In this document: positions 6,445 through 63,653 of the stretch, one piece after another
Position numbering within the stretch: position 1 is the first letter of the stretch
Layout of the letters: each line of letters starts with the position of its first letter
Virus record (IMG/VR): IMGVR_UViG_3300013103_000005
Location: 1-64,000 of that record
DNA from: a virus
Length of the DNA stretch: 64,000 nt
Direction: 5' to 3' (one strand)
Made by a program: the position numbers and the translations under genes
Notes under the pieces: model-generated
The model's database searches: none
The model's input: the letters and a program-made list of their open reading frames with translations, nothing else
What the model was told of the DNA's origin: nothing

Positions 6445-6990
6445 ATGCCTCTCTCACTAGAAGAAAAAGAAGCATTGTTAGGAAAGTTAATTGAAAGTTC
6501 AGAAGGTCGTAGAAAGATAGCACAATCAATGATAAGCCCTCTTCGTAACAAACTTGATTATAGGGCAGTAGGAAGAAAGGCATTAGTAGTAGACCCTCTT
6601 CCTGCAGGTGTTCTTCCATACTATGATAAAGACGTGGATGTTTCTGCTATCATAGTAGCAGAAGATGGAGAAACACCTGAAGCAGTAGTAAGGGGTGAGA
6701 GAATACTTGTTCCTTTATTTGAGTTAGCAACAAACCCCAAAGTAAAAATTACTCAGGTAAAGGAACGTAAGTATGCAATACTTCGCCGTGTACAAGACAA
6801 AGCAGTACAGGCAATTCAGGAGTTAGAAGATACTCGTATTTTCTCTGCTCTTGAAGATGCTTGTGCTATAAATGATTTGACAACAATTAATGTTAGTGGT
6901 TATTTAGATAGAGATTCTCTTGCAGATGCATTTGCACAGATTGAAGCACAAGATTTGAGAGTTGCTAATATATTTATGAACGCCTTGGAT
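6445..6990 (+). CDS. Major capsid protein, exon 1
   Basis: This encodes residues 1-182 of the probable major capsid protein: an N-terminal helical arm (LSLEEKEALLGKLIESSEG), then VVDPLPAGVLPYYDKD, GETPEAVVRGERILVPLFEL and a long helix with AILRRVQDKAVQAIQELED, in the style of HK97-fold capsids. The unspliced frame stops six codons into the intron. Splicing after GAT 6990 to TTC 8242 gives NALDFGDIRKWGRD, continuous in frame and in sense, for a 283-residue protein. A strong AAGGAAGG site lies upstream. Cys-free and compact, it sits in the expected order after scaffold and decoration genes. Confidence 0.85.
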
Positions 6991-8241
6991 TACTGCCGTA
7001 AGGCAGCGTAGTCCCCTATACCAGTGATGGTATAGTGCAAATCGGGTCAATTGCGGGAAAGACCTGTTAAGCTCTGGGTACTCCCCATCGCCGTGAGGTA
7101 GATGGTATAGTAAAAAGCCCAGAGATAGGGTTAATCCGCAGCCGAGCATCTTTAAGGAAGCTAAAATGAGTGTTAAAGAATATAGAAAAGTTACCTGTCC
7201 TATATGTGGTAAGAAGTTTAGAGTTTTACATCCTAACGGTCATTTAAAAGTTCACGGCATTACCACACTTGAAGAATTTTATCGTAGATTTCCAGAAGAG
7301 ATGACAAGTTATACTGCTTATTCATATTCTCAAATTAGACCTAAATCAATTGAAGGGTTTGATTTGAGAGGGTTAAAAATCTCCGCTACTAAAAGAGGTA
7401 TAACTCTTCACCGAGCATTGCAATTAAAAAAGAAAGAAAAGGAATTTAAGAAGTACGCTGAAGAAGGTGAAGAGTTAGTTACTTGTAAAATATGCGGAGG
7501 TAGATTTAAGAGGCTCGCAGCTCATTTGCATTATAAACACGGAATAACGACCAAAGAATATTTGGATTTGTTTAAGGGAGGATTGACTTGTTCCAAGAAA
7601 TCAGGGCGGAAGACTGCTGAAACTTGTAATGCTAAAGGAATTTTACAAAAGGCAAGGGAGAATGCTAAAATCGGATTGCTTAAGAAATATGGAGTTGATA
7701 ACCCTATGAAAGTTCCCGAAATTGTATTAAAGCAGTTTAAGTCTTCTGTTCGTCATGTTAAAAGTAAACCAGAAATCCTATTAGAAACCTTGTTGGATTC
7801 TAATTTTACTGGTCAGTTTGTTTATAATGGGTGTGGTAATGCCGATATAATGATTGGGCATAGGATTCCTGACTTTATACATACTTCTAAAAAGAAAGTT
7901 ATAGAAGTTTTTGGAGTTTATTGGCACGGTGAAAGAAGGACAGGTATTCCTAATGATGTTCATGAAAAAGAACGTATTGAAGAATATAGAAAAGAAGGTT
8001 ATGATTGCTTGGTGATTTGGGAAAATGAACTTGATGATGTAAATAAAGTTTGTAAGAAAATAGAAAGCTTCCTTAAAGATGAAGGTTCAGAGACCGAAGC
8101 TAGTAAGGGAGACCTTATTAGCGGAACCCGACATCCTATCGTAAAGGTAGGATGATGATACGGTCCGACCTCTACCGAAAGGTAGAGAGGTAGGCAGAAA
8201 TGACCTACCCGCTTCCTTAATAGGAAGTAGTAACAAACGTG
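6991..8241 (+). ncRNA. Self-splicing group I intron in the capsid gene
   Basis: All four core elements are present: P (AATTGCGGGAAA, 7049-7060), Q (AATCCGCAGC, 7133-7142), R (GTTCAGAGACCGAAGC, 8085-8100) and S (GATACGGTCC, from 8156). P4 pairs GCGG with CCGC. P7 pairs GACCG (8092-8096) with CGGTC (8161-8165). P8 is a 9-bp helix with a GAGA loop (8100-8121), and later P9 hairpins include one with a GAAA loop (8170-8187). P1 is formed by exon GGAT pairing with GTCC near 7011-7014, giving a U-G pair at the splice site after 6990. The terminal G is taken as 8241 because this restores the capsid frame. Confidence 0.9.
7166..8155 (+). CDS. Intron-encoded homing endonuclease, Vsr/EDxHD fold
   Basis: The 329-residue protein starts with two zinc-finger-like segments (CPICGKKF...HLKVHG and CKICGGRF...HLHYKHG), continues through a linker with KKYGVDNPMKVPE, typical of intron-associated DNA-binding modules, and ends in a Vsr-like nuclease: PDFIHTSKKKVIEVFGVYWHG, then HEKERIEEYRKEGYDCLVIWENEL. 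Such enzymes cut intronless alleles to spread the intron. The gene lies between Q and R of the group I core, and its last 20 or so codons run through R and P8, so it is physically merged with the ribozyme. The ribosome site is AAGGAAG. Confidence 0.88.
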   Translation: MSVKEYRKVTCPICGKKFRVLHPNGHLKVHGITTLEEFYRRFPEEMTSYTAYSYSQIRPKSIEGFDLRGLKISATKRGITLHRALQLKKKEKEFKKYAEEGEELVTCKICGGRFKRLAAHLHYKHGITTKEYLDLFKGGLTCSKKSGRKTAETCNAKGILQKARENAKIGLLKKYGVDNPMKVPEIVLKQFKSSVRHVKSKPEILLETLLDSNFTGQFVYNGCGNADIMIGHRIPDFIHTSKKKVIEVFGVYWHGERRTGIPNDVHEKERIEEYRKEGYDCLVIWENELDDVNKVCKKIESFLKDEGSETEASKGDLISGTRHPIVKVG

Positions 8242-60996: not shown

Positions 60997-61590
60997 ATGA
61001 AGAACGAAAAAATTTTGAAAATAATCAGAGAAGAATTGGATTTATTTAAGGTGTTAGATTTTTATAATATAGAATATAACCCTTCCAAAACAAAACAGAT
61101 GATAATTTGTCCTTTCCATTCGGAAATAAAACCCTCTTTATCTATTTCTGAAGATGGAAAATTATGGCATTGTTTTGGGTGTAATGCAGGCGGAGATGTT
61201 ATAAAGTTTATTGAAGAAATAGCTAAATGTGATTTTAAAGAAGCTATAGAAATAGCAAAGGAAATATTGGGAATTAAAAAAGGAAAAATCAAAATTAAAA
61301 AAGTTGTAAAGACGAAAGTTAAAGAAAAGATTTTGTTTGAAGATGTTCAAGAGGATTTGAAAAATAAATTACTCGAAGAATTGAAATTGATGTATAAGAC
61401 TTATAGAATTGTTTGTGATTTTCCTTTGTATTTGGATAAGATTTATGATTATGTTTTGAGCGTTGTTTTTGAAAAAGAAAGATGGTCTGTATCCTCTGTG
61501 AGAACCTTCCTTTCCCAATCCGAATCTTTATTTAGGCTCTCCTTTGAAAACCCTCCTAAAATTTCAAGATGGTATCCAGAAAAAGTTTAA
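60997..61590 (+). CDS. Short primase with CHC2 zinc finger, no TOPRIM domain
   Basis: The 197-residue protein has a complete DnaG-type zinc-binding domain (LDLFKVLDFYNIEY, CPFHSEIKPSLSI, WHCFGCNAGGDVIKFI) in residues 10-90, then a helical tail. The catalytic TOPRIM region is missing, so it may only recognise DNA and work with a separate catalytic protein outside the window, or be a regulator. The stop is the TAA of a palindrome copy (EKV-stop). Confidence 0.85.
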   Translation: MKNEKILKIIREELDLFKVLDFYNIEYNPSKTKQMIICPFHSEIKPSLSISEDGKLWHCFGCNAGGDVIKFIEEIAKCDFKEAIEIAKEILGIKKGKIKIKKVVKTKVKEKILFEDVQEDLKNKLLEELKLMYKTYRIVCDFPLYLDKIYDYVLSVVFEKERWSVSSVRTFLSQSESLFRLSFENPPKISRWYPEKV

Positions 61591-61603
61591 CGCGTTAAAC
61601 TTT
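61582..61603 (+). repeat. 22-bp palindrome, copy 23 (CGCG centre)
   Basis: A perfect palindrome, extendable to 24 bp. It is the last copy in the window and ends the replication module. Confidence 0.97.
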
Positions 61604-61604
61604 T

Positions 61605-61700
61605 CAAAAAAAAAATTAAAAATTTTTGTTTAAATTTATAAATTATTGGTTTATAATATTTTATGATTTTAAAATTTTTTAAAAAATTTTAAATTTTTCA
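61605..61700. promoter_or_regulatory. Extremely AT-rich tract, UP element or unwinding region
   Basis: Almost pure A/T with runs such as AAAATTTTTTAAAAAATTTT, directly upstream of the promoter at 61702. It is likely an UP element for that promoter; a DNA-unwinding element of a replication origin is also possible. No gene is present. Confidence 0.55.
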
Positions 61701-61701
61701 C

Positions 61702-61729
61702 TTGCATTTTATCGTATATACGTTATAAT
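61702..61729 (+). promoter_or_regulatory. Sigma70-type promoter of the structured RNA
   Basis: TTGCAT (61702-61707), a 16-bp spacer and a perfect TATAAT (61724-61729), with an A/T tract upstream. The expected start is near 61736. This is the clearest promoter in the window and it faces the structured RNA and the small genes after it. Confidence 0.8.
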
Positions 61730-61735
61730 ATACTA

Positions 61736-62240
61736 TAGAATATAAAGGTTCTTTGAAAATTTTAATCTTCTTTATTTCTCCCGAGACCCTCAAGAGGAAG
61801 CGGAGGGTGAGAATCCTCTTAAAAAACACAAAGGGAGAAATAAAGAAGAACGCGAGGGACGGCGGACAGTCCAAGACGCACTCAGGTGGGTGCCGAAATC
61901 GGAAAGCCTACGAAGGCCAAGTAGGCGAGTACGAGAGTAATTGGCTAGGGAAACCACCGAGAAGGTCGGTCGGGGGTTGGCTCTGAGCCCTTGATGGTCT
62001 AGATGCGAAAGGCAAGCTCGCCTTTAAATCCCTTCCTCAAACCATTTCACTTCTCCTTCCTTCTTTAAAACCTAACAAAAGAACCCAAGACACTTGCTGA
62101 GTAGGTCCGAATCTGTCAAGGGTGGCTTGTATAAGCGATCGGAGCACCTGTGTCCGGGACAGGATACCTGACGGATTTAGGCTTTTCTTGAGAGCTAACG
62201 CTCTCAAGCTAATAAGGCTATCTTTAGTCTTATTAGCTAG
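61736..62240 (+). ncRNA. Large structured noncoding RNA, class unknown
   Basis: About 500 nt without a credible gene, GC-richer than its surroundings, behind a strong promoter. Helices seen: a 17-bp perfect helix (61766-61782 with 61833-61849) that encloses a pseudoknot (ACCCTC 61786-61791 with GAGGGT 61803-61808, whose loop AAGAGGA 61792-61798 pairs with TCCTCTT 61814-61820); GCACTC/GGGTGC (61878-61893); GCCTAC/GTAGGC (61906-61926); ACCGA/TCGGT (61956-61970); AAAGGC/GCCTTT (62008-62025); AATCTGTCA/TGACGGATT (62110-62118 with 62169-62177); CTTGAGAGC/GCTCTCAAG (62187-62208). It could belong to the large phage RNAs such as ROOL or GOLLD; I cannot assign it. An internal 77-codon frame (61753-61986) is taken as chance. 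Confidence 0.82.
62187..62238 (+). terminator. Two adjacent perfect hairpins at the RNA 3' end
   Basis: CTTGAGAGC-TAAC-GCTCTCAAG (62187-62208) is followed by AGCTAATAAGGCTA-TCTT-TAGTCTTATTAGCT (62207-62238, 14 bp with one G-U pair). The two share AG. Neither has a T run, so they look like an RNA 3'-end structure or a processing signal more than a classical terminator. Confidence 0.55.
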
Positions 62241-62282
62241 TGGGCGTTATACATTATTAATATATGTATAGGAGGGAGGAAA

Positions 62283-62681
62283 ATGGCTAGAATTCAATTC
62301 AGAAAATTCGAATATGATAGAATTCTTCTCAAACTTTCCGATGACATTCACGGTTTCATCAGAGAAAAAGCGAAAAATATGGAAGTTTGCTGTTACGAGT
62401 ATAAAGACAGTCGCCTCCATATCGTTATCGGAACGACTTGGGATGGGTCGTTCCATAATCCAGGGCTTATTATTAAAGCGGAAGCGGAAATACTCAGAAA
62501 GGGATTCTGGAAACGTCTCCGCAAAAAGCTTAAAGAAGCAGAAGAGTTTTTCAGAAAAAGAATGGAGGGGGAAGAGAGCATCAACTGGGACGCTCTTAAT
62601 AAAATAAAAAGAATGAGAGGACATGCCGAGGCAATCCGTCGTTGGGAGTTGTCTCGGAAAAATAATAACCTTTTTTCATAA
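62283..62681 (+). CDS. Hypothetical protein, paralogue of the 62693 gene
   Basis: The 132-residue protein has YKDSRLHIVIGTTWDGSFHNPG, then GFWKRLRKKLKEAEEFFRK and EAIRRWELSRKN. The next gene shows the same three blocks (YEDSRLSIKIGWKWSESFHAS, GFFKRLRKKLKEAEAFF, EAISRWELSRKN), so they are paralogues. The layout is a beta hairpin domain and a basic helix. No known family. It is the first gene after the structured RNA, with GGAGGGAGG upstream; codon use is more GC-rich than in the structural genes. Early or counter-defence function is a guess from context. Confidence 0.65.
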   Translation: MARIQFRKFEYDRILLKLSDDIHGFIREKAKNMEVCCYEYKDSRLHIVIGTTWDGSFHNPGLIIKAEAEILRKGFWKRLRKKLKEAEEFFRKRMEGEESINWDALNKIKRMRGHAEAIRRWELSRKNNNLFS

Positions 62682-62692
62682 GGAGGAAGAAA

Positions 62693-63082
62693 ATGACGAG
62701 GCACTTCTATGTTAGTGAAATATGGAATTTAAAAAATGAAAAGAAGTTCAAAAAATATATATGGCTTGGGGTCTCACCTGAAATGTTCCAAGCCATATTA
62801 AGGAAAGGCGAGACATTTACTTATGAAGATTCTCGCCTTTCCATTAAAATCGGGTGGAAGTGGTCTGAGTCGTTTCATGCCTCAGACACGACCACCGATA
62901 TACAGGTCTATACAAAAAAGCGTTCTGGATTTTTCAAACGCCTTCGCAAGAAGCTCAAAGAAGCGGAGGCGTTTTTTCTTGGAACAGAAGATGATATGTT
63001 CTCTGCCTTAGATGATATTAAGAAGCAAAAAAGAGAAATTGAGGCAATTTCCAGATGGGAGTTGTCTCGTAAGAATGCTTAA
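62693..63082 (+). CDS. Hypothetical protein, paralogue of the 62283 gene
   Basis: The 129-residue protein repeats the three blocks of its neighbour (see 62283) and differs mainly in the N-terminal 45 residues (FYVSEIWNLKNEKKFKKYIWLGVSPEMFQ). The duplication in tandem with divergence in one part suggests different targets. TAAGGAGG lies upstream. Function unknown. Confidence 0.65.
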   Translation: MTRHFYVSEIWNLKNEKKFKKYIWLGVSPEMFQAILRKGETFTYEDSRLSIKIGWKWSESFHASDTTTDIQVYTKKRSGFFKRLRKKLKEAEAFFLGTEDDMFSALDDIKKQKREIEAISRWELSRKNA

Positions 63083-63103
63083 CCTTTTTAAGGAGAGAAG
63101 AAA

Positions 63104-63292
63104 ATGAAATTCAAGAAAGGCAACAAAGTCAAAATTAAAGTCGGTCGCCTAATGTCTTCTTACAGGTGGCTAGCTGATAAGGAACTAACCTATATTGGAA
63201 AATATAAAAGGGGTGCTACCACCTATGCGATTTTAAAGACGCAGGGTGGTAGCAGAATAGACGTAAATATTAAGAATGTAGAAAGGAGGTGA
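63104..63292 (+). CDS. Small SH3-like basic protein
   Basis: The 62-residue product (FKKGNKVKIKVGRLMSSY, ELTYIGKYKRGATTYAILKT, SRIDVNIKNVERR) has the strand pattern of an SH3-like or KOW-like barrel. AAGGAG is upstream and it ends 4 nt before the ring nuclease start, with which it is probably co-translated. Role unknown. Confidence 0.58.
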   Translation: MKFKKGNKVKIKVGRLMSSYRWLADKELTYIGKYKRGATTYAILKTQGGSRIDVNIKNVERR

Positions 63293-63296
63293 TATT

Positions 63297-63653
63297 ATGG
63301 CAAGATATCTGACCAATGCTTTTAGCTTAAATATGATTGGAAATAAGACAGGAATGTTTATTGTACAGAACGCAGACTTGAAGACCCTCCGGGAAATATC
63401 CGATTTGCAATCGGTAATTGGTCATCAAGCTACTGCTGATTTACTTACAGAACTTCTTGGGCGAAAGATTGAATTCAATCGAGTAGCCCTTGAACTCAAA
63501 AGCGGGGATATATTATATGTGGTTACTGTTTTCAAAAATGGTAAGCCTTTCCGTCTCCCAGAAGGAAAGGTGCTTACTAAGGAAGAACTGAAAGGGTTAG
63601 AATTAAAGATTAAAGTTATCCAGTTTGTATCGGATAACCAGAAAGAAATGTAG
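63297..63653 (+). CDS. AcrIII-1-type viral ring nuclease (DUF1874 family)
   Basis: The 118-residue protein follows the DUF1874/STIV-B116 family: YLTNAFSLNMIG at the N-terminus, SVIGHQATADLLTELLGRKIEFNRVAL in the middle and GDILYVVTVF...RLPEGKVLTKEEL. In AcrIII-1 the catalytic His lies in the GHxxTA motif; here it is His43. The family cleaves cyclic tetra-adenylate made by type III CRISPR systems and so blocks that defence. AAAGGAGGT is upstream. It belongs to a run of small early-type genes. Confidence 0.9.
   Translation: MARYLTNAFSLNMIGNKTGMFIVQNADLKTLREISDLQSVIGHQATADLLTELLGRKIEFNRVALELKSGDILYVVTVFKNGKPFRLPEGKVLTKEELKGLELKIKVIQFVSDNQKEM

Follow-up and report, generated by a model that had tools for sequence, protein, structure and literature searches.

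The 64,000-nt window analysed here spans positions 1-64000 of a virus record that is 76,116 bases long. The portal, tail sheath, tape measure and baseplate genes identify the virus as a myovirus, and all its recognisable genes are located on the + strand. Related phages were sought via the neighbours of the region described below, the helicase, the primase, the DNA polymerase and the baseplate proteins, and only distant matches of ~30-40% identity were found; as the closest phage proteins are ~30-35% identical, the virus belongs to an orphan lineage. With the AcrIII-1-like protein described below as the query, no related phage was found in GTDB. The charged-minus-polar value of the protein composition, 9.2%, and the nearest AcrIII-1 relatives are weak signs of a thermophilic host.

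The longest intergenic gap of the record, 61591-62282 (692 bp), directly follows the DNA polymerase, helicase and primase genes. The following features have been identified in the gap and in the genes after it.

61585-61600, + strand: final copy, upstream of the leader, of a recurrent intercistronic palindrome (GTTTAACGCGTTAAAC), which includes the primase-like gene's stop codon and ends the upstream gene block
61606-61700 (95 bp), no strand: A/T tract with 5% GC (from the GC profile) and inverted A/T repeats, a possible UP element or curved DNA
61702-61729, + strand: promoter-like site TTGCAT-16 nt-TATAAT (by sequence)
61766-61849, + strand: 5' domain, a perfect 17-bp stem around an H-type pseudoknot (z -5.5; 0 of 150 shuffles)
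61850-62030, + strand: core of 58% GC, in which 61857-61872, 61906-61926 and 61969-61995 are candidate hairpins
62031-62088, + strand: pyrimidine-rich linker, unfolded according to pair probabilities
62089-62188, + strand: branched domain, whose closing helices according to pair probabilities are 62103-62107/62180-62184 and 62109-62118/62169-62178 (10 bp)
62189-62238, + strand: two tandem hairpins just 5' of the first gene, of 7 bp (62189-62206) and 14 bp (62207-62220/62225-62238)
62270-62285, + strand: strong ribosome-binding site (AGGAGGGAGGA) followed by the first gene's start codon (by sequence)
62283-62681, + strand: first ORF, 132 aa, with no solid family match, 47% identical to the second ORF
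62693-63082, + strand: second ORF, 129 aa, a paralogue of the first, with five back-to-back hairpins in the coding sequence (62759-62974)
63104-63292, + strand: third ORF, encoding 62 aa and holding an 11-bp hairpin (63214-63254), where the over-folded stretch ends
63297-63653, + strand: AcrIII-1-like viral ring nuclease (DUF1874/STIV B116; PF08960 and PDB matches)

The palindrome at the upstream edge of the gap is one of 28 copies of a 16-bp sequence, GTTTAACGC(G/A)TTAAAC, usually found inside AAAGTTTAACGCRTTAAACTTT, with ~0.1 copies expected by chance. The copies lie at 2717-61600 of the window and at 67169-73419 in record coordinates, with none between 61.6 and 67.1 kb, mostly at the end of a gene, often with its stop codon, and 17-62 bp from the next start. 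Where imperfect, it always reads CGCA and never the reverse, a hint of either an RNA hairpin or a site with a defined orientation; the palindrome could be stoperator-like or an intercistronic hairpin.

The sequence-only reading had described a near-consensus promoter, the strongest one, ahead of the structured RNA. Its -10 hexamer TATAAT (61724-61729) is indeed perfect, but the -35 hexamer TTGCAT (61702-61707), separated from it by a 16-nt spacer, matches the consensus in only 3/6 positions, and for this reason the site is absent from the consensus promoter scan, which required at least 4/6 matches per hexamer. The start of the transcript would be expected near 61736. The A/T tract ahead of the structured stretch is present as described, and it allows for an explanation at the DNA level, in which the tract would be the unwinding element of, for instance, a replication origin, and the inverted repeats would act as DNA. 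The tract adjoins strong inverted repeats and follows directly after the replication genes, but the folding is strand-biased, with G-U pairs on the + strand, and the hairpins continue within coding sequence, so we consider an origin very unlikely.

The stretch 61766-62240 is non-coding, GC-rich and folded on the + strand. All six frames of 61766-62238 are below real genes in codon usage, with stops in every frame, in agreement with the earlier statement that no plausible gene is present. The GC enrichment noted there is also confirmed, 61851-62000 being the highest-GC 150-nt window of the 64 kb (60% GC compared to the mean of 33%). GC islands in AT-rich genomes have been used as a signal for finding structured non-coding RNAs in single bacterial genomes (PMC6429828, PMC8632094). 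A perfect helix of 17 bp and helices of 14, 10 and 7 bp, together with others, total more than 80 paired bases, as had been estimated by eye. The folding z-score of the whole leader is -4.2 to -4.4 on the + strand, where no shuffle folds equally well, versus -2.9 to -3.3 on the - strand; the difference is due to G-U pairs in several helices, which form on the + strand only. The significance of the folding energy comes from the two ends of the leader, the 5' domain and the 3' tandem hairpins. Thus, of the structured RNA of ~500 nt proposed initially, the ends fold far beyond chance, while the middle domains are not significant by energy. We take the RNA as real and regard it, from sequence analysis, as an unclassified structured RNA candidate.

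The arms of the 17-bp stem (61766-61782/61833-61849) enclose a pseudoknot formed by ACCCTC (61786-61791) with GAGGGT (61803-61808) and AAGAGGA (61792-61798) with TCCTCTT (61814-61820), which is equalled by none of 500 loop shuffles and by 4 of 2558 phage windows. The core (z -1.0) is not significant by energy, and neither is the branched domain with its hairpins 62125-62136 and 62150-62167 (z -1.6 on the + strand, +0.25 on the - strand). For these two domains the argument is the base composition and better folding on the + than on the - strand, and the structure of the core is unproven. The tandem hairpins are the strongest element (62189-62240, z -8.05). Having no U-tract, they are not an intrinsic terminator, and the scan of the + strand found no terminator between the leader and the downstream genes. 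The last hairpin ends 45 nt before the start of the first ORF.

The linker segment 62051-62061 is predicted to form 11 contiguous base pairs with the ribosome-binding site (62270-62280), with the ensemble probability 0.83. This could point to a translational switch controlled by a ligand or a protein, with the upstream domains deciding on the pairing. Still, 35 of 200 shuffled leaders pair equally well, so that the pairing does not stand out from chance, and the leader is unmatched by riboswitch families in the Rfam scans; a switch of this kind seems improbable. The resemblances to T-box, cobalamin (CAGGATACCTG, similar to the B12 box) and RNase P RNAs, seen by eye, were dropped, as no model matched.

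The possible kinship with ROOL and GOLLD, large structured non-coding phage RNAs, was raised in the sequence-only reading and finds no support. The Rfam gathering and permissive scans yielded chance matches only. Both families are unmatched in the permissive scan of 851 nt, and direct searches of the genome were empty for GOLLD (RF02032) and for ROOL (RF03087, no matches at E up to 10; none of the control genomes matched either, so the sensitivity of the latter search is unproven). Moreover, unlike these RNAs, the leader runs straight into genes, and no tRNA or tmRNA genes have been found in the window. The matches of the permissive scan (mir-136 at 0.004 and others) arise from a long minus-strand hairpin compared with animal microRNA models. 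Another likeness is to Racrs, phage RNAs found beside counter-defence genes, which are small mimics of CRISPR repeats (PMC10651486), unlike the leader, where no repeat-like sequence is visible by eye.

The group I intron model RF00028 does not match the leader, its matches being located elsewhere, at 6981-7284 and 8031-8187 (4e-9). These scores are under the gathering score, which is why the Rfam gathering scan missed the group I intron at ~7012-8240 with a homing-endonuclease-like ORF at 7166-8155. By position, the interrupted gene looks like that of the major capsid protein.

No homologue of the leader has been identified by blastn in phages, plasmids and 50 phage records, nor in IMG/VR and GTDB, where the IMG/VR scans were seeded with translated RNA stretches and such seeded scans detect close relatives only, nor by a covariance model of 62089-62188. 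As the homologue searches may also omit records very near the window's own, distant homologues may exist. The structured RNA candidate is thus known from one genome, with relatives not found, and it cannot be assigned to an RNA family.

These data bear on the possibility that the leader yields a discrete, large non-coding RNA belonging to a new class, which would be cut from it or terminated within it and act in trans as a scaffold, an oligomer or a protein-binding RNA, as ROOL, GOLLD and OLE may do. The size of ~480 nt, the multi-domain architecture with a pseudoknot, the GC-rich core and the compact hairpins at both ends would suit such an RNA, and the 17-bp and 14-bp stems could serve as processing sites. 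The loop of hairpin 61906-61926 is palindromic GGCC, and in OLE the symmetric kissing loop alternates between GGCC, GAUC and AGCU (PMC12286853); however, GGCC loops arise commonly by chance, and this hairpin competes with other pairings. Given also that no terminator follows the leader, that Rfam, ROOL and GOLLD are unmatched, and that the known ornate RNAs have been described from many sequences, we consider a discrete RNA doubtful.

The gene run behind the leader had been described as counter-defence-like, and one gene supports this description. The protein encoded by 63297-63653, a DUF1874 protein like those of AcrIII-1 viral ring nuclease operons, matches PF08960 (6.1e-17, 62 bits with the cut-off of 26) and the PDB structures 2x4i, 6scf and 2j85, and the catalytic-histidine motif GHxxT is kept in the alignment to 2x4i and 6scf. 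A PADLOC match to Csx16 is weaker and not in conflict with the assignment to AcrIII-1. The molecule degraded by AcrIII-1 is cA4, which serves as the messenger in type III CRISPR immunity, and the AcrIII-1 gene of STIV, B116, is expressed early (PMC7213978). In the phages with the closest AcrIII-1 relatives (THSA-485A and Hydrogenobaculum phage 1), the leader is unmatched beyond chance. The two paralogues share a strongly conserved C-terminal part, including KRLRKKLKEAE and RWELSRKN, and by their position are candidates for new anti-defence proteins; neither has a solid family match, and the AlphaFold2 model of the second ORF is poor (pLDDT 55).

The over-folding does not stop at the start codon but continues into the ORFs, which is newly found here and is the most unexpected part of the results. 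In this respect the interval initially delimited, up to 62240, covers a real folded stretch but ends too early, as strong folding runs through the ORFs to ~63260. The segment 62759-62980 has the folding energy of -85 kcal/mol (z -7.0 on the + strand, -6 on the - strand). Eight long hairpins are found in 62207-63254, compared to 36 in the other 75 kb. Among the 500-nt windows of the record, 62737-63236 is over-folded the most, exceeding those of the group I intron, and folding is ordinary again from 63237.

Both ORFs are genuinely coding, since the paralogues are 47% identical and the sequence encoding KRLRKKLKEAE differs by synonymous codons only. Permutation of synonymous codons in the second ORF removes much of its structure (z -5.8), while the mean for control genes treated in the same way (n=40) is -0.7 with the standard deviation of 1.55, two of the 40 reaching -5.9 and -4.6. 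The first of these two over-folded control genes lies beyond the window, at 72936-73409 in record coordinates, and the second at 6445-7011. In the hairpin encoding EAI...WELSR, the sequence of the arms is kept in both paralogues and the loop is changed, which, with two sequences compared, is only suggestive.

Since no terminator precedes the next gene, a long 5' leader suits best among the four options offered by the sequence-only reading, and nothing in the data points to the packaged RNA or to the decoy. We thus propose, with somewhat less than even confidence, that 61737-62282 is transcribed as the highly structured 5' leader of a counter-defence operon, acting in cis on the stability, processing or expression of the message. 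The operon would comprise the two paralogues, the 62-aa protein, AcrIII-1 and more genes, probably transcribed as a single RNA and early. The stretch is non-coding, folded on the coding strand and followed by a gene with no terminator in between, as a structured 5' leader should be, and since the folding reaches past it into the first three ORFs, the message would begin with a 1.5-kb chain of helices. The 17-bp stem with its pseudoknot near the 5' end and the tandem hairpins before the ribosome-binding site may shield the early message from nucleases or, alternatively, set processing sites; in either case anti-CRISPR proteins would be produced early and in quantity. On the other hand, the folding energy of the leader's middle part is not significant, AcrIII-1 is only the fourth gene, two of the 40 controls show over-folding close to that of the second ORF, and the -35 hexamer of the promoter is weak.

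A different action in cis would be that of a nascent-RNA antiterminator similar to put, with the leader binding the elongating polymerase and ensuring read-through of intercistronic palindromes down the operon. The put RNA of phage HK022 is much smaller than the present leader, and to our knowledge no put-like sequence is recognisable in it. The palindromes, six of which are found downstream, from 67.1 kb on, form short A/U stems with few U residues after them, and their role as terminators is putative. It is true that the leader is located directly after the promoter that heads a long gene run, that the HK022 put RNA is likewise a structured RNA heading an early phage operon, and that it antiterminates on its own (PMC9378689), but overall we regard antitermination as unlikely.

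A more speculative and highly improbable extension of the proposed 5' leader concerns selection, namely, that the leader and the first three ORFs (1.5 kb) have been folded under selection as armour against RNA-targeting immunity. Such folds would keep the first phage message out of reach of type III CRISPR guides, and of the single-strand RNases activated by those systems, until AcrIII-1 and its neighbours are made.

If transcribed, the leader would be a large structured phage RNA outside all catalogued families, located right before genes that include an inhibitor of the class acting on type III CRISPR immunity. It would make testable both the survival of early counter-defence messages under RNA-targeting immunity and whether selection favours strong folding within the coding sequence there.
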